Below are positions 30,302 through 61,800 of a stretch of 64,000 nt of DNA, in pieces. Within the stretch, counting starts at the first letter, position 1; each line of letters opens with the position of its first letter. A program made the translations under genes and the position numbers. The DNA comes from Chitinophaga pinensis (GTDB taxonomy: Bacteria; Bacteroidota; Bacteroidia; UKL13-3). The stretch is taken from positions 200,154 through 264,153 of the forward strand of contig CAMARW010000001.1 in assembly GCA_945860865.1 (NCBI GenBank), written 5' to 3'. Under the pieces are notes generated by a model. It searched no databases. It worked only from the letters and a program-made list of their open reading frames with translations, and was not told the DNA's origin.

Positions 30302-32482
30302 TTAAAACAAAGTGTTTTGCGGGGTTTTTTCGTTGCTTCTTCTGTGTTTTAATTTTTGATAAACTGCATTAATTTTTTCTGCTAGCTCGGCTGGATTAAT
30401 AGGGTAGCTTAAATAATCGTTCATTCCGGATGCAAATACATTTCCGCGAGTATCTGAATTTATATTGGCGGATAATGCAAAAATAGGTGTTAAAACTCCC
30501 GCTTTTCTTATCGTTTTAGCAAATTGAAAACCATCCATTTCAGGCATTTGTAAGTCAATTAAAATTAGATCGTATTTTTTTCTCTGAACCCAGGCAAGCG
30601 CATCTTTACCATTATTGGCAATATCAACAGTTGTTCTCCACCTTTCAAGTAGTTGTTTGGCCCTTAAAACATTTATTTGATTATCGTCAATTAATAAAAG
30701 GTTTAGACTTGTAAAATCTGTGTTTTCTGGTAAACTATCTTTTTTGTTTGCTTCTTTCTTATTGGTTTGAGATATGGGTAAGATTAAGGTAAAACTAAAC
30801 GTTGTGCCCTTGTTTTTTTGGCTTGTTACAGACAGCGAACCACCCATAATTTCGACTAATTTTTTACAAATAGCTAATCCTAATCCTGTGCCACCAAATT
30901 TGCGGGTTGTATCAGGAGATGCTTGTGTAAATTGTTCGAATAAATGAGGCAAATAATGAGGGTCTATTCCAATGCCAGTATCCCAAATTTCGAATGATAG
31001 AAGCGCTTTTTCGTCTTTTATTTCTAAGCAGCGAGCTAATAAACCCACTTCACCAGCTTCGGTAAACTTGATGCCATTGGATAGTAAATTATTAAGAATT
31101 TGGCTAATTCTTAACGAGTCGCCTTCTAGCAATTCTGGTATTTCTTTGCTTGTTCTTAGGTGTAAAGTTATTCCTTTTTGCTTGGCTGCATAAATCAAAG
31201 ATTTGCCTGTGTTTTGCAAAATTTCTATCAAGTTAAATGGGTGAACATCTAAATCCATTTTACCCGCATCAATTTTATTAAAATCTAAGATATCATTAAG
31301 CATATACAGCAAGGTATCTGCTGAATACTTGAGTCCATTTAAGTTTACTAATTGTTTTAAGTTTGGTTCATCTAAAAGAAGCAAATTAATAAATCCAATA
31401 ACGCCATTGAGAGGGGTTCTAATTTCGTTGCTTATAGAAGAAAAGAATAAACTTTTTGCATGAGAAGCTTCTTCTGCTTTTTGCAAGGCTTGCTTGTATT
31501 CTTCCTCTAATTTCTTTCGATAATCAATATTGCTGAATGTTCCAATGGCACGTGTGGGGTTTCCGTCTTGGTCTGTTTCGGCCACTTTACCCCTGTCTAA
31601 TACCCAAATATAAGTATTATCTTTCCTTTTTAATCGGTACTCGCATTCATAAAAATGGGACAAACCTTCGAGGTGGTCTACAAATAAGTTCCAGGCTTTG
31701 GGTAGGTCGTCTGTGTGAACCAAATCTTCCCAGGATTCTGTTAATTGTTCATGAGCACTATAGCCAAGCATCTCGCTGAATACAGGGGAGAAAAAAGTTT
31801 CGTTACTTATTAGATTTACATCCCAAACGGCATCTTTGCTTCCGGCAAGGGCGAAGTTCCAGCGTTTTTCTGCTACAGCTAATTCTTCTTGTGATTGCAC
31901 TAAATCTGTAATGTTTTCTACAACACCTAAAATTGATTCTACCTCACCTTGAGCATCTAAAATTGGAATTTTAAACGTACGGGCATAGATTGGATTTTCG
32001 TTAACTTTTATGCAAAGTTTTTGAATAAGTATAGGTTCTTTATCTCTCAGAATGAGTTGGTCTGTTGCCAAATAATGAGAAAGTTCACCTGCATCTTTAA
32101 ATACTTCTTCGTCTGTTTTTCCAATTACATTTGCTTCTTTTAGGTTAAATAATTTTTCTAATTCTTTGTTCCAAAGGGTATAGGTAAGTCCGTTTTTTAC
32201 TTGTTTCACAAATACACCAATTGGCAAGTTTGAAATGAGTTTATTTAAAAAATCTATTTGGTGAATCTGAGAAATTACTGCCGATACTTCTGCTGGTGTG
32301 TTATTTTTAATTCTCTGTAACTTGGCTTCGATTTTAAGGAAATACAGGTTAATTAAAAGGGGAATAATACAAATTATATTTACCCAAGCATTGTCTAAGA
32401 AAATACCTAAAGTTATTAATATGATGCTAATAGCTGTATTTAAGCCTAATATCCAAAACAATATTTCTTTTTGCTTATGCAT
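30302..32482 (-). CDS. Degenerate hybrid histidine kinase (PAS-PAS-HisKA-HATPase-REC)
   Basis: 726 residues. Two N-terminal membrane helices (8-29, 33-49), PAS domains at about 75-195 and 205-325, dimerisation/phosphoacceptor domain from 340, ATPase domain (N box NNLLSNGIKF, G1 WDTGIGID, G2 GGTGLGLAI) and a receiver domain from 593. In the phosphoacceptor box, where active kinases have SHEIRTPLNG, this protein has SNEIRTPLNG: codon 352 is AAC (bases 31427-31429). In the receiver, Asp643 is kept but the conserved Lys of the KPI loop is Tyr693 (bases 30404-30406). So classical phosphotransfer is unlikely. Its start overlaps the menC stop by eight bases. Confidence 0.88.
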   Translation of the reverse strand: MHKQKEILFWILGLNTAISIILITLGIFLDNAWVNIICIIPLLINLYFLKIEAKLQRIKNNTPAEVSAVISQIHQIDFLNKLISNLPIGVFVKQVKNGLTYTLWNKELEKLFNLKEANVIGKTDEEVFKDAGELSHYLATDQLILRDKEPILIQKLCIKVNENPIYARTFKIPILDAQGEVESILGVVENITDLVQSQEELAVAEKRWNFALAGSKDAVWDVNLISNETFFSPVFSEMLGYSAHEQLTESWEDLVHTDDLPKAWNLFVDHLEGLSHFYECEYRLKRKDNTYIWVLDRGKVAETDQDGNPTRAIGTFSNIDYRKKLEEEYKQALQKAEEASHAKSLFFSSISNEIRTPLNGVIGFINLLLLDEPNLKQLVNLNGLKYSADTLLYMLNDILDFNKIDAGKMDLDVHPFNLIEILQNTGKSLIYAAKQKGITLHLRTSKEIPELLEGDSLRISQILNNLLSNGIKFTEAGEVGLLARCLEIKDEKALLSFEIWDTGIGIDPHYLPHLFEQFTQASPDTTRKFGGTGLGLAICKKLVEIMGGSLSVTSQKNKGTTFSFTLILPISQTNKKEANKKDSLPENTDFTSLNLLLIDDNQINVLRAKQLLERWRTTVDIANNGKDALAWVQRKKYDLILIDLQMPEMDGFQFAKTIRKAGVLTPIFALSANINSDTRGNVFASGMNDYLSYPINPAELAEKINAVYQKLKHRRSNEKTPQNTLF

Positions 32483-33551
32483 GTATAGTTAAATTCAACT
32501 CTTCCTGTGAGGTTGGGAAACTCCATTTATTTGTTGCAATATAATACAAGAATCCTTTTTCTGCCAATAATGGACCATCAAAATTATTTACATAAAGTGC
32601 TCCTGTTCCTAAACCATGTGGTAGTGGATTATTTTTTGTGGCCGTCCATTGGGCAATGGCATTTAAACCAATATTTGATTCTAGTGCAGAGGTTGCCCAC
32701 CAGCTCATATCCTGTTTTTTTGCTTGGCTAATCCAAGTTTCTGAAGCATTAAATCCGCCCAAGAGAGTTGGTTTTAAAATGCAATATTTAGCACCAATTT
32801 TTTTCAAGAGTTTAGCTCCATCAATAGCAGGATTAACACCAATTAATTCTTCATCAAGGGCTATATCTATAGCAGATTTAGCACAAATTTCTTGCATCGC
32901 ATCTACTTGTTTGGGGGCAATAGGTTGTTCTATTGAATGAACAGTAAATTTTTGCAGGTCTTTTAGTTTATTTAATGCCTCATCAGGCAGAAAGGCGCCG
33001 TTTGCATCTAGTCTAATTTGAACATGGTTGGGCGAATAATGTTTCCTAAACTGCTCAAGCATTTTGCATTCTATATCGTGTTGGTGTGCACCTATTTTAA
33101 ATTTAATGCAATTGTAACCAGCGTCTGCTTTCTGTAGCGCTTCTTGTAGCATTTGTTCTGGATTATTCATCCAAACAAGGCCGTTCATAGCAATAGGTTT
33201 TCCTTTTAAAAAGGGGTTATCATTATTGTGTATTCCTCCCCCATTGTTTATATCTCGGTGCAATGTTTCAATGGCAAAGCACAATGATGGAAACCTATCT
33301 ATATCTAATTCTCTGGCATCTTTGCCTTGGTTTAGTAAGGTAATTATTTTAATTAGTTCTGTTTCAAAACTAGGTATTGCATCCATGCTTAAACCTCTGA
33401 GTGGAGAAGCTTCTCCCCAGCCAATTATGCCTGTTACAGCAGTTCCTTTTATTAAATAGGCATCGTGGGTTTGTATAGCTCCTCTGCTTGTTTTGGCTTC
33501 AAAAGAAAACTGTAAGCTTCTTTTAAAAACTTGGTATTTTATGTTTTTCAT
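32475..33551 (-). CDS. menC: o-Succinylbenzoate synthase
   Basis: About 358 residues from MKNIKYQVFKRS. It dehydrates SHCHC to o-succinylbenzoate in menaquinone synthesis, an enolase-superfamily reaction. Catalytic and metal residues are recognisable: the KxK pair in CIKFKIGAH, Asp in RLDANGAF, Glu in HSIEQPI, the Asp-Glu of ALDEELIG and the Lys of CILKPTLLGG. The frame is open to 33602 but the ATG at 33551 overlaps the menA stop in an ATGA, typical of coupled translation, so that start is chosen. Middle gene of menA-menC-kinase. Confidence 0.92.
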   Translation of the reverse strand: MKNIKYQVFKRSLQFSFEAKTSRGAIQTHDAYLIKGTAVTGIIGWGEASPLRGLSMDAIPSFETELIKIITLLNQGKDARELDIDRFPSLCFAIETLHRDINNGGGIHNNDNPFLKGKPIAMNGLVWMNNPEQMLQEALQKADAGYNCIKFKIGAHQHDIECKMLEQFRKHYSPNHVQIRLDANGAFLPDEALNKLKDLQKFTVHSIEQPIAPKQVDAMQEICAKSAIDIALDEELIGVNPAIDGAKLLKKIGAKYCILKPTLLGGFNASETWISQAKKQDMSWWATSALESNIGLNAIAQWTATKNNPLPHGLGTGALYVNNFDGPLLAEKGFLYYIATNKWSFPTSQEELNLTIHA

Positions 33552-34435
33552 ACAGCTAAAAATAAAATAAAAATTAAAACTAAACTGCTTAAAGAAAGCC
33601 ATTTAAGTAGTGGATCAAATGCTGTTTCAACTTTTACTTTAGCGGCTAAAAATAGGTTCAAACCTATGATTAAAGAAAAGGCAGGAACAACCCACACGGT
33701 TAAATTTAATTCTTTGGCAACCAAAAGCAGGCAGATTAGAGATAAAATTAAGAGTGAACTGTGATAGATTTTTGCTTTAGCTAAACCTAATCTAACAGGA
33801 ATGCTGTTTTTACCGGCTAACTTGTCTGAGGAGATATCGCGCATGTTATTTAAGTTAAGAACCCCAACAGATAACAAGCCAAAAGCACAAGCCAACATTA
33901 TAGCAGTGTAATTTATTTGTGTGGTTTGGAGGTATTGCGTACCAATTACTGCAACCAATCCGAAAAAAATAAAAACACTGATATCTCCTAATCCATCATA
34001 GCCATAAGGTTTTTTTCCGTTGGTATAGGCAATTGCTGCAATAATGGCTAAAATTCCAATGGCTAGTAAACTATAGGTTGCTAATGCACCAATTAGCGGC
34101 TTTGCTAAGTACAATAAAATGCAGCCTGAGATAAAAGCTAAAGCCGCAAAAACAAACATAGCGGCCTTCATTTGGTGTTTGGTAATTAGTCCAGATTGTA
34201 CCGCCCTTGAAGGTCCTTTTCTGGATTGGTTATCTGCTCCATGTATGCTATCTCCATAATCGTTGGCAAAATTAGAGAGTATTTGGAGGAACAATGCTGT
34301 TAAAAACGTGAATAAAGATATTTGTAAATTTACTTCTTGTTGGGTTTGAACCAAAAGAATACCTGACCAAATGCATGATAAAGAGAGAAATAGTGTGCGT
34401 AAACGTGCTGCTTTAATCCAATGAGATATTTTCAT
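33548..34435 (-). CDS. menA: 1,4-dihydroxy-2-naphthoate polyprenyltransferase
   Basis: About 295 residues from MKISHWIKAARLRT. Integral membrane UbiA-family enzyme that prenylates dihydroxynaphthoate. The first Asp-rich motif is NFANDYGDSIHGAD, the second is NNMRDISSDKLAGKN, and about eight or nine helices follow the family layout. The open frame runs to 34537, but the ATG at 34433-34435 begins the conserved N-terminus. Its start is only twelve bases from the divergent CLC start. A GGTTCAAACC word (33655) and GGTTTGAACC (34343) lie inside. Confidence 0.93.
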   Translation of the reverse strand: MKISHWIKAARLRTLFLSLSCIWSGILLVQTQQEVNLQISLFTFLTALFLQILSNFANDYGDSIHGADNQSRKGPSRAVQSGLITKHQMKAAMFVFAALAFISGCILLYLAKPLIGALATYSLLAIGILAIIAAIAYTNGKKPYGYDGLGDISVFIFFGLVAVIGTQYLQTTQINYTAIMLACAFGLLSVGVLNLNNMRDISSDKLAGKNSIPVRLGLAKAKIYHSSLLILSLICLLLVAKELNLTVWVVPAFSLIIGLNLFLAAKVKVETAFDPLLKWLSLSSLVLIFILFLAV

Positions 34436-34447
34436 TATGTTTGCTCC

Positions 34448-36253
34448 ATGAGTCAGCAAATTAAATACTTTCGTTTCTTGCTGAAGTATCCTGTTTATAA
34501 AATATTTAAACAAAGGAATAAATACATTAGTAATCAAAGCTTTCTAATTATTGCAAGTATACTAGTGGCCATTGTTGTGGCTTTTGCGGCCATCTTGCTA
34601 AAATCTTTTGTTCATTGGTTAGAATCTGTTTTAATAAACAAGCAATTTTTAGAGTTGCGTTACCAATATTTGGTTTATCCAGTGGTTGGTATTGTATTAT
34701 CGCTCGTTTTTATAAAATATGTTTTTGGCCTAAAGCAATTTGAAAAGGGATTGGCAAGTGTTATCTACAGAATTAATTTTAAAAAGGGAAAAATAGAAGA
34801 ACATCATACTTATGCGCACATGATTAGCAGTGCATTTACGGTAAGTTTGGGTGGGTCTGTGGGATTAGAAGCTCCCATTGCTATAACGGGTTCGGCTATT
34901 GGTTCAAACTTGGCAAAACGATTATTTTTAAACGATAACGATAGAAATTTACTTTTGGCTTGTGGGGCATCTGCGGGCATATCTGCTATTTTTAATACGC
35001 CTATCGGGGGAGTAATTTTCGCTTTAGAAGTGCTTCTGCGTAGGGTAAATATTTCTGCTTTTGTGCCCCTATTAATTGCATCAGCAACCGCGGCAGTAAT
35101 TAGCAATATTTTTTATCAAGGACAATTAATAGTTTTTACTGCTAAACCTTGGGAGCCTTCTTCGGTTCCATTTTATGCCCTTTTTGCTGTGGCTTGCGGA
35201 CTTATATCTGTTTATACTATTTGGGTAATTTATGGCATAGAATCTAGGTTTAATAATAGGAATCAGAAATTTTTGGTGGCAATTTTTCAGGGTTTGGTAG
35301 TGGGCGGGTTAATCTTGTTTTCTCCACTTTTGTATGGGGAAGGTTATTTTGTAATTAATCAAATTTTGAACGGCACTTTTGATGCTTTTATGAAAAATAT
35401 TTCCTTACAAACTAATTTTGGCCATAACAGTATTTTCTTATTATTTGTATTTGCAACGCTTTTGTTAAAACCAATTGCAGCCGCACTTACTGTAAGTTCG
35501 GGTGGTAACGGGGGCATTTTTGCACCTTCCTTGTTTATTGGGGCACTTTTGGGTTTGCTTTTTGCCCGTATTGTTAATTTAACTGGTGTGGCACAGCTTA
35601 ATGAATTAAATTTTGTTGTAATTGGTATGGCTGGCGTTTTAAGTGGGGTAATGAGCGCTCCCTTAACAGGTATATTTATGATTGCAGAAGCATCTGGTGG
35701 ATACACCTTATTTGTACCATTAATGATTGTTTCTGCAGGGAGTTTTTTTGTAACTAGACTAATTGAACCAAATAGTATTTATACAAAAAAACTGGCAAAT
35801 AGCGGTTTGCTAGATAAAGCGCCAGAGTTAGAAGTATTAAGTGAATTATCTGTACGTGCAGTAATGGAGACAGATTTTCCTAGTTTTAAACCAGACGATT
35901 CTTTGCGCAGGGTTACCGAAGTAGTTTCTGGAACACGTAGAAATGTATTTCCAGTGGTAAAGCGAAATGGAGATTTTGTGGGTATAGTAACTATGGGCCA
36001 CTTAAGATCATATCTATTTAAACATGATTTGTATGATAAAGTTAAAGTTTCAGAAATTTTGGTTCAAGATATTATAACAGCCGAAATAAATGATAGCTTA
36101 TCAGATTTAATGCAGCAGTATGAGCAATATTTAGAAGTTTTTTATATTCCTGTTCTAGAAAACGGCAAATATCTTGGTTTTGTATCCAAAAGCACTTTTT
36201 TAAATAAATACAAAGAACTAATGAAAGAGTGGTCTGAGCAAAAGGCAATTTAA
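34448..36253 (+). CDS. CLC family chloride channel/antiporter with C-terminal CBS pair
   Basis: About 601 residues. The membrane part has the CLC selectivity segments GSVGLEAP (with the gating Glu, hinting at Cl/H exchange) and GGNGGIFAPSLFIG. From about residue 465 two CBS domains follow (SVRAVMETDFPSFKPDDSL and VSEILVQDIITAEI...), which in CLC proteins bind nucleotides. The ATG at 34448 (MSQQIKYF) is used; a TACTTTCG box lies just inside the frame at 34466-34473, four bases before an in-frame TTG, so a shorter form is possible. Ends in a strong terminator that overlaps its stop. Confidence 0.9.
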   Translation: MSQQIKYFRFLLKYPVYKIFKQRNKYISNQSFLIIASILVAIVVAFAAILLKSFVHWLESVLINKQFLELRYQYLVYPVVGIVLSLVFIKYVFGLKQFEKGLASVIYRINFKKGKIEEHHTYAHMISSAFTVSLGGSVGLEAPIAITGSAIGSNLAKRLFLNDNDRNLLLACGASAGISAIFNTPIGGVIFALEVLLRRVNISAFVPLLIASATAAVISNIFYQGQLIVFTAKPWEPSSVPFYALFAVACGLISVYTIWVIYGIESRFNNRNQKFLVAIFQGLVVGGLILFSPLLYGEGYFVINQILNGTFDAFMKNISLQTNFGHNSIFLLFVFATLLLKPIAAALTVSSGGNGGIFAPSLFIGALLGLLFARIVNLTGVAQLNELNFVVIGMAGVLSGVMSAPLTGIFMIAEASGGYTLFVPLMIVSAGSFFVTRLIEPNSIYTKKLANSGLLDKAPELEVLSELSVRAVMETDFPSFKPDDSLRRVTEVVSGTRRNVFPVVKRNGDFVGIVTMGHLRSYLFKHDLYDKVKVSEILVQDIITAEINDSLSDLMQQYEQYLEVFYIPVLENGKYLGFVSKSTFLNKYKELMKEWSEQKAI

Positions 36254-59218: not shown

Positions 59219-60043
59219 CTATGGGAATTTCGGAAACTTTTTAAAATCTGGTTTGCGTTTTTCTAAGAAGGAGTTTTTACCTTCTTTAGCTTCATCACTG
59301 AGGTAATATAATAAGGTAGCATTGCCCGCTAATTCTTGTATACCTGCTTGGCCATCTAATTCTGCATTAAACGCGCTTTTTAGCATACGTAAGGCAATAG
59401 GACTTTTCTCCATAATTTTTCTACACCAAGCTATGGTTGCTTCTTCTAACATTTCTAGCGGCACTACTTTATTTACTAGGCCCATATCTAATGCTTCTTG
59501 CGCATTGTATTGATCGCATAAAAACCAAATTTCTCTGGCCTTCTTTTGACCCACTAATCTGGCCAAATAACTGGCTCCAAAACCACCATCAAAACTACCA
59601 ACTTTAGGGCCTGTTTGACCAAATTTAGCGTTTTCTGCCGCAATGGTAAGGTCGCAAATTACGTGCAAAACATGTCCGCCACCAATGGCATAACCTGCCA
59701 CCATAGCAATTACCGGCTTAGGAATGCGGCGAATTTGCATTTGTAAATCCAAAACATTTAACCTAGGCACGCCATCATTGCCTACATATCCACCATGGCC
59801 GCGTACACTTTGATCGCCACCACTGCAAAAAGCTTGTCCGCCCTCACCAGTTAAAATTACACAGTAAATCGCCTCATCTTGGCGAGCTAGTTCCATGGCT
59901 TCGCTCATTTCTGTAACAGTAAGCGGGGTAAAAGCGTTGTGAACCTGTGGACGGTTGATACTTATTTTAGCAATACCATCATAAAATTGAAACAAGATTT
60001 CTTTGTATTCTTTAATGGTTTCCCAGTTGTATTTAGATTGCAT
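59219..60043 (-). CDS. menB: 1,4-dihydroxy-2-naphthoyl-CoA synthase
   Basis: 274 residues, crotonase fold. It closes the naphthoate ring from o-succinylbenzoyl-CoA in menaquinone synthesis. Family-specific pieces are [46 protein letters not shown] and the C-terminal [16 protein letters not shown]. It follows menD but has its own consensus promoter. menA and menC are 25 kb away; menE and menF are not in the window. Confidence 0.96.
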
Positions 60044-60105: not shown

Positions 60106-61800
60106 TTAATAACGGATATTTTTAAAGGCATCAATAGCTGATAAATTGCTTTCTTCTTCAAAAATTAAATCCAATATGCTGATGGTTTCTGTTGGTTTAT
60201 AGAGTTCTTTTAACTGCTCCTCAAGTCTTGATTCTTCCGAACAACTTAAATAATTTAACCCATACTGGCTGCACAATTTACCAATGCTTAGCTTATGTGG
60301 CGTTGTAAAATAAGGTAATTGAGCTGGGGATTTTTTAGGTCCATCAATCCAATTAAAAATATTTCCATTGCCATTGTTCAAGACTATAATCTTTAAATTA
60401 CTAGGCAAATTATTCTGCCAAAATCCATTTTGATCATAGAATAAAGATAAATCACCTACAATTAGCGTTACAATTTGGTTTGGCATAGCCATGGCCGAAC
60501 CAATAGCTGTGCTTATGGTTCCATCTATGCCACTGGTGCCTCTATTACTGAATATGCTTAAGGCAGATTGCTGTAAACCCAGCCAACTAGCCCAACGCAC
60601 CGCAGAGCTATTACCTAATTGAACCTGTGTATAAGGCACCAAGTTGTTAATCACTTGTTGCATGGCTTTTGGTTCAGACCAAGGCCTATTTTGCAAAAAT
60701 GTTTGTAACGATATATTGAACTTTTTTTCTTGTTCAAGCCATACAGCCCGATATGTTTTCTGATCTTGGTTCTTGAAAATGTTCAAAGAATGAAAGGATT
60801 CTAAATAGGGTGCCACTTCAGCTATAATTGCCTGCGTAACATTTTGATAAGTATCTATTATCTCACTTTCATTTTGTAGCCTAAAATGGTGGGATGGTTT
60901 TTGTTTTTTCAGCCAATTTTTCAGCGACTTAGACACCATGGGTCCGCCAAATGAGAGAATAAAATCTGGGTTTAATTGATTTAATACCTCTTCACTTGCA
61001 AACTGAATAATGGAATCGAAATGAGGCACAAAACAGGCTGCACCTTGGTTAGAAACAATATCACTTAAAACCACCACATCATCGGCCTCAACTATCTTTT
61101 GCAGGTAGCTGGTTATTTGTTTATTGGGTGTCATTTGCCCAATAAGGATGATGCGCTTCTTGGCTTGCATCCAAGCTTCAGAAACTTCTGATAGCAAAGG
61201 TAATTTGCGTATACTTTGTTTAAATTCCTCTACTTCGGTATTTAAATAAGAAAAGTCTAATGTATTTTGAGGGATATCATAAAGTGGTTCGCGGAGCGGC
61301 ACATTGATGTGAACAGGACCGTGTTTCTCTCCATTTTGGCATTCATCAATCGCATTTGCAACAATTCGCTCGGTAAGTTTAAAATCAGATTGATTTTCAT
61401 CAAAACATAGTAATTCATGACTACCTAAAACGTGTTTACCATAAACTCCCTTTTGCATAATCATTTGCCCATCTTGCTGATTAAGCATTTCTGGCGGTCT
61501 GTCTGCCGTTAAAATAAGCAGCGGAATTTTTTGGTAATAAGCTTCTGCCACTGCCGGAAAAAAGTTTAAACAGGCCGTACCAGATGTAGCAATAATAATA
61601 ACAGGTTCATTGCATTGTTGCGCTAAGCCCAATGCAACAAAGGCCGCGCTTCGCTCATCAACAATAGAATAACAGGTAATTTTGGTATATTGTGTAAAAG
61701 CATAAACCAGCGGCGCTGATCTGCTTCCAGGGCAAATTATGGCGTGTTTAATGCCTGCGTTCTCGCATACTTTAGCTAGGGTTAATATGTGATGGTGCAA
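60106..61800 (-). CDS. menD: SEPHCHC synthase MenD
   Basis: 564 residues, thiamine-dependent. It adds 2-oxoglutarate-derived semialdehyde to isochorismate. The N-terminal block GIKHAIICPGSRSAPL is diagnostic; the catalytic Glu lies in SIVDERSAAF, and the TPP domain has GTSGIDGTISTAIG and GDLSLFYDQNGFW. The start seems to be a TTG at 61798-61800 (MHHHILTLAKVCENAG in family register); no ATG is available upstream. Twenty-seven bases after the cyclophilin gene on the same strand. Word GGTTCAGACC at 60671. Confidence 0.94.
   Translation of the reverse strand: MHHHILTLAKVCENAGIKHAIICPGSRSAPLVYAFTQYTKITCYSIVDERSAAFVALGLAQQCNEPVIIIATSGTACLNFFPAVAEAYYQKIPLLILTADRPPEMLNQQDGQMIMQKGVYGKHVLGSHELLCFDENQSDFKLTERIVANAIDECQNGEKHGPVHINVPLREPLYDIPQNTLDFSYLNTEVEEFKQSIRKLPLLSEVSEAWMQAKKRIILIGQMTPNKQITSYLQKIVEADDVVVLSDIVSNQGAACFVPHFDSIIQFASEEVLNQLNPDFILSFGGPMVSKSLKNWLKKQKPSHHFRLQNESEIIDTYQNVTQAIIAEVAPYLESFHSLNIFKNQDQKTYRAVWLEQEKKFNISLQTFLQNRPWSEPKAMQQVINNLVPYTQVQLGNSSAVRWASWLGLQQSALSIFSNRGTSGIDGTISTAIGSAMAMPNQIVTLIVGDLSLFYDQNGFWQNNLPSNLKIIVLNNGNGNIFNWIDGPKKSPAQLPYFTTPHKLSIGKLCSQYGLNYLSCSEESRLEEQLKELYKPTETISILDLIFEEESNLSAIDAFKNIRY

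Follow-up and report, generated by a model that had tools for sequence, protein, structure and literature searches.

A candidate pseudo-histidine kinase, private to one lineage, at the end of a menA-menC operon in Bacteroidota

In histidine kinases, the conserved histidine of the HisKA domain is needed both for autophosphorylation in cis and for His-to-Asp phosphotransfer. Hybrid kinases such as BarA, TorS and ArcB share the order HisKA-HATPase-receiver, which is also that of the kinase described here. The conserved histidine is reported not to be bypassable for phosphotransfer, and HisKA domains without it are rare (722 of 76,471, or 0.9%; PMC12632262). One described case is DivL of Caulobacter, which combines PAS domains with HisKA and ATPase folds, binds ATP weakly, and has the acceptor histidine replaced by tyrosine across its alphaproteobacterial homologues, with alanine in one (PMC4211667). 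Another is the catalytically dead ChrS of Corynebacterium glutamicum, which arose in an evolved strain through a frameshift that hit its ATPase domain, has a paralogue partner, and gives a heme tolerance above that of the no-kinase state by acting via another kinase (PMC9491836). On the receiver side, a pseudo-receiver is defined by the absence of any one of five active-site residues, and the pseudo-receivers of CikA and KaiA have been reported to bind quinones (PMC12632262).

Here, we have analyzed a hybrid histidine kinase gene in a window of 64,000 nucleotides (assembly GCA_945860865.1, contig CAMARW010000001.1), the window being the whole stretch of DNA under study. The source genome comprises 2.59 Mb in 13 contigs and is 99.9% complete. 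The features are as follows, with positions counted from the first nucleotide of the window and G numbers denoting the genomes compared.

33548..34537, minus strand: menA, 1,4-dihydroxy-2-naphthoate polyprenyltransferase (longest ORF; TIGR00751)
32475..33551, minus strand: menC, o-succinylbenzoate synthase (likely ATG at 33551, longest ORF starting at 33602; TIGR01927)
30302..32482, minus strand: hybrid histidine kinase of 726 aa (ORF), last gene of the menA-menC-kinase unit, without phosphoacceptor His and receiver Lys
32333..32482, minus strand: N-terminal hydrophobic hairpin, residues 1-50, aligning with residues 16-65 of the G001 orthologue
32321..32338, minus strand: junction of an in-frame deletion, approximate, about 340 G001 residues gone (alignment to G001)
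31898..32251, minus strand: PAS C (our own label), retained, residues about 78-195 (Pfam, alignment)
31538..31798, minus strand: PAS D (our own label), PAS_3, retained, residues 229-315 (Pfam)
31262..31459, minus strand: HisKA domain, residues 342-407 (Pfam)
31427..31429, minus strand: AAC codon, Asn352; His, CAT in relatives (sequence, alignment)
30782..31123, minus strand: HATPase_c, residues 454-567, motifs intact (Pfam, alignment)
30371..30697, minus strand: receiver domain, residues 596-704 (Pfam)
30554..30556, minus strand: receiver Asp643, kept (alignment)
30404..30406, minus strand: TAC codon, Tyr693; Lys, AAA/AAG in relatives (sequence, alignment)

Both men genes lie upstream of the kinase on the same strand, and the gene ends overlap, the menA stop with the menC ATG as ATGA and the menC stop with the kinase ATG as ATGCATAA, which agrees with the translational coupling proposed in the preliminary description of this DNA. 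The menA product scored 243.6 bits against TIGR00751 (cut-off 102.15), and the best model for menC was TIGR01927, at 108.4 bits and under its cut-off of 130.55. Past the kinase, on the opposite strand, are a VanZ-like gene and a gene that we take, from its sequence, to be pgk. The window also holds menB (59219-60043, minus strand) and menD (60106-61800, minus strand), approximately 25 kb from menA.

PAS folds, HisKA, HATPase_c and Response_reg were all detected above Pfam cut-offs, and with the last three in one chain the protein is a hybrid histidine kinase by descent. Among the best 25 of 154 NCBIfam models matched, all of them scoring below their cut-offs, BarA, TorS and ArcB gave the highest scores, and the window kinase differs from all three in having no acceptor histidine. 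Its H-box reads SNEIRTPLNG, with Asn352 at the position of the histidine that an active hybrid kinase carries, and its receiver stretch reads NDYLSYP, where Tyr693 replaces the lysine while the other catalytic residues (D599, D600, D643 and S671) are present. It is therefore a pseudo-histidine kinase in the sense of having kinase domains without the acceptor, and its receiver, with four of the five catalytic residues, has the defining feature of a pseudo-receiver (PMC12632262); compared with pseudo-receivers, it keeps the Asp and acidic pair, so that weak phosphorylation from elsewhere is possible, and it sits within a kinase that has also lost its histidine. Residues E353 and T356 of the H-box are retained, as are what we take to be the ATP-binding motifs. 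The reading frame has neither a stop nor a frameshift, which rules out a simple pseudogene of that kind. The preliminary description had given both substitutions at exactly these codons, together with the intact ATP-binding motifs and receiver Asp, and all of this is borne out by the sequence and the alignment. A structure model built with 9 sequences had a mean pLDDT of 64; the ATPase and receiver domains were mostly well modelled, the greater part of HisKA and residues 1-83 fell below 50, and the model was kept out of the evidence.

A large change upstream of these domains was overlooked in that description, which had considered the rest of the protein not decayed; the frame is indeed open, but some 340 residues are missing and the gene changes faster than its neighbours. 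Residues 1-50 match the start of the relatives' proteins and residues from 53 onward match a later part. The stretch lost between them corresponds, in G001, to what follows of the membrane part together with the upstream PAS region; Pfam detects PAS_8 there at residues 198-253, and by eye we read a second PAS fold. The long forms of the relatives (1075-1091 residues in G001, G002, G003, G005, G006 and G013) consist of a membrane part, the upstream PAS region, two more PAS folds, HisKA, ATPase and receiver. Since several congeners have shortened proteins as well (842-977 residues in G014, G010, G016, G004 and G009), pruning of the sensor is common in this genus. Compared with the orthologues of G001, G005 and G014 (L096, L098 and L099), the Pfam score of the window kinase is lower for HisKA (47.3 versus 65.3-68.4 bits) and for the receiver (91.2 versus 101.1-101.9 bits), and falls within their range for the ATPase (100.7 versus 98.2-106.1 bits).

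The linkage of this kinase to menC is widespread. A query spanning PAS C and PAS D gave strong matches in 15 of the 19 genomes of the genus, its own included, and in all 15 the kinase adjoins menC (14 by direct reading, G007 from the contig positions of two matches). The kinase is cleanly absent from G008 (L137), G011 (L138) and G015 (L139), in which menA-menC is followed by the VanZ-like gene, and the contig of G018 stops at menC. Beyond the genus, the kinase lies beside menC in five genomes of four genera (G025, G027, G034, G064 and G078), with menA also nearby in G027, G064 and G078; the preliminary description had pointed to orthologues as a check on the men linkage, and here it holds. A family search at 1e-30 matched 21 of 64 genomes, including G060, whose short flank contained no menC, and nine kinase loci from a separate scan all belong to Bacteroidota MAGs.

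The residue state of these orthologues is quite different from that in the window. The acceptor position can be read in 13 congeners, 12 of which have histidine, and histidine also stands there in all five genomes from other genera with a menC-linked kinase. At the receiver position 13 congeners can be read, a set with G007 and G012 but without G017, and every one has the lysine, as do G027, G034 and G064, the three genomes of other genera read there. The relatives' codons are CAT for His, except in G017, and AAA or AAG for Lys (a printed set that excludes G012), so that the AAC and TAC codons of the window are each two bases away; His to Asn by itself could take one base, from CAC, but Lys to Tyr could not. 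Because close orthologues keep both residues, the loss is private to the window lineage, and a conserved pseudokinase family is ruled out. Thus, of the retained pseudokinase put forward in the preliminary description, the loss of both phosphotransfer residues in an open frame stands, but the state is not conserved, and the congeners carry the normal His and Lys which that description itself had named as counting against it. As read from these sequences, the menC-kinase linkage is old and the residue loss is not. The one congener without the histidine, G017 (L060), has SDEIRTPMNG with GAT for CAT, on a contig of 3.9 coverage that breaks off ahead of the receiver; its Asp is possibly a second, independent loss of the acceptor.

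The window kinase thus resembles the known systems only in part. DivL replaces the histidine across its homologues, whereas the Asn of the window kinase is private to one lineage, its ATP motifs are intact, and it has a fused receiver. In contrast to ChrS, it has an intact ATPase domain and no close paralogue in its genome, the next best match being 32% identical over residues 337-703.

Substitution patterns were compared in several ways. Of the positions that do not vary among 11 relatives, the window kinase has changed 6 of 49 in HisKA and 7 of 48 in the receiver, compared to 1 of 52 in the ATPase region, 2 of 53 in PAS C and 5 of 75 in PAS D (HisKA plus receiver versus PAS plus ATPase, one-sided Fisher p=0.008), and the same count for each of the 11 relatives is 0-2 per domain. 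These counts are based on 12 sequences, after removal of three incomplete ones (G007, G012 and G017) and two distant ones (G027 and G034). If G012 and G017 are brought back in, the window values become 5/44 for HisKA, 2/44 for PAS C, 4/71 for PAS D and 1/29 for part of the ATPase region; counted against the 13 others, G017 has 4/43 in HisKA and 8/50 in PAS C, elevated values that exceed the window's in PAS C and come close to it in HisKA. Changes close to the lost residues include L347F, T349S, M350I and F695I. In the kinase tree the window branch measures 0.230 against 0.066 for G001, and in a tree of ClC, menA and menC the corresponding values are 0.131 and 0.100. Relative-rate counts for the kinase versus five pooled neighbouring genes were 39:16 versus 47:48 with G005 as the reference (p=0.016), 40:13 versus 58:47 with G014 (p=0.015) and 40:6 versus 50:38 with G001 (p=0.0004). 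The relative-rate contrast between domains was not significant (Fisher 0.09 with G005, 0.07 with G014, 1.0 with G001 and 0.7 with G006); being suggestive against G005 and G014 and absent against G001 and G006, it does not uphold a relaxation confined to HisKA and the receiver.

Codon models were fitted to 8 of the aligned genomes on an assumed topology, and the two-ratio fit for the receiver ended below its null. With synonymous sites saturated, omega on the window branch was approximately 0.053 versus 0.028 elsewhere (2dlnL 4.4), and omega=1 on that branch was rejected (2dlnL about 50). Since the G006 branch, which has a normal kinase, gave 0.051 when used as the test branch, the models serve solely to reject omega=1. 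Approximately 0.06-0.07 nonsense changes are expected per neutral missense change and no stop was observed, which may indicate continued use of the kinase, at the strength of modest evidence, the missense excess amounting only to tens of changes.

The window genome also differs from most of the genus in its Hpt complement. An Hpt domain (PF01627) was matched in 17 of the 19 genus genomes, 15 of them above the curated cut-off, whereas this profile found none in the window genome (99.9% complete) or in G011 (81% complete); a multistep phosphorelay, which takes an Hpt partner in the genome, is thus not supported there. In six of six genomes opened, a standalone Hpt gene of about 115 residues lies beside a gene that is presumably of SH3/NlpC type, followed by a presumed peroxiredoxin gene; its other flank is what we take to be map in G001, G002, G005, G006 and G014, and another gene in G008. 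The identity of the G014 Hpt was confirmed with Pfam. At the syntenic site of the window genome (L173 2269-2592, G000:C3), 324 bp separate map from the SH3/NlpC-type gene, the peroxiredoxin gene is present, and there is no Hpt gene. The best tblastn piece at this site covers 31 residues at 32% identity (E 0.023, a one-sequence search), so a faint Hpt remnant is conceivable; the G014 Hpt had no match in the window genome at E 10, in a search run without a positive control. We infer that the standalone Hpt serves the men-linked kinase in the relatives. A strict coupling of the two genes is ruled out, as the Hpt occurs in G008, where the kinase is missing, and another hybrid kinase is intact in the window genome without any Hpt.

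That other kinase, of TPR type (L136 5144-7603, G000:C9; orthologues L198-L213), is found in 18 of the 19 genus genomes, the window genome included, where it retains His, Asp and Lys, indicating that decay does not follow from the loss of the Hpt by itself. In the window genome this kinase has private changes of 1/24 in HisKA, 0/40 in the ATPase, 1/34 in the receiver and 9/111 in the N-terminal part. The window branch is long in the tree of this kinase as well (0.269 versus 0.112 for G001), and the speed is therefore not special to the men-linked kinase. Among 17 aligned TPR-type kinases, the receiver Asp is replaced by Asn, with the His kept, in G014, G012, G010, G008 and G016, and G014 has Glu for Lys too; relay parts have thus been lost elsewhere in the genus. 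The window genome has 10 HisKA matches compared to 12-62 in the other genomes of the genus with a completeness of 90% or more (G017, 84% complete, has 4), and the H-box His is present in all eight other kinase ORFs read in it, a set that is not paired one-to-one with the 10 matches.

Taken together, the kinase looks like a signalling protein on its way either to a new role or to loss. In the explanation that we prefer, to which we give about an even chance, it is a lineage-specific pseudo-histidine kinase that descends from an active men-operon hybrid kinase, has been cut off from its relay and is still functional. The ancestor, as the orthologues show, was an ordinary hybrid kinase long established beside menC. 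The Hpt would have been its relay partner, and loss of the Hpt would have taken away the reason for keeping the phosphotransfer chemistry, although the losses may have come in either order. The remaining protein has a membrane anchor, PAS folds and the ATP-binding core and, less surely, it might still work without phosphotransfer as a PAS sensor, the core changing shape and engaging a partner as DivL does. A tentative alternative, short of probable, is that erosion is under way, the kinase having become useless with the disappearance of its partner. The faster change relative to the pooled neighbours, the large sensor deletion, the missing kinase at the menA-menC site of three congeners and the lowest number of HisKA matches among genus genomes at least 90% complete all agree with decay, and under it the frame would still be open because the loss is recent; on the other hand, omega is far below 1, and modest evidence against decay comes from the lack of stops or frameshifts despite the missense excess and from an ATPase region whose private changes are as few as in relatives.

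Signalling in trans, with the intact ATPase phosphorylating the histidine of a heterodimer partner or the protein acting as a phosphatase via the H-box Glu and Thr, would suit the conserved ATP motifs, E353 and T356, and HisKA phosphatase activity is described as able to do without the conserved His, which nevertheless contributes to it (PMC12632262); we consider it unlikely, given the lack of a close paralogue and of any detected Hpt in the genome. A bold idea, for which we see only a slim chance, is a phosphate-free quinone or redox sensor in which ATP binding, the two PAS folds and the Lys-less pseudo-receiver signal the quinone state, purely by binding, to MenA and MenC or at the membrane. 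Such sensing is a candidate role suggested by the operon context, and it is kept in view because of the quinone binding reported for CikA and KaiA. Finally, an artefact of sequencing or assembly, or a chimera, has to be thought of, as the species is represented by a single genome and one base could turn His into Asn, but this is extremely improbable, because four bases differ from the relatives at the two codons (G017 aside at the His codon), neighbouring residues have changed and the deletion is in frame; the flanking genes are normal as well.

Pseudo-histidine kinases and pseudo-receivers are already known; what is new is a lineage-private member with a readable before-and-after. No description of a menC-kinase unit was found in the titles and abstract openings among the literature matches listed. 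Since normal orthologues, the operon and a likely partner can all be read in the relatives, partner loss and chemistry loss may be compared branch by branch, and the conserved menC-kinase unit is a starting point for finding a regulator connected with menaquinone synthesis or respiration.
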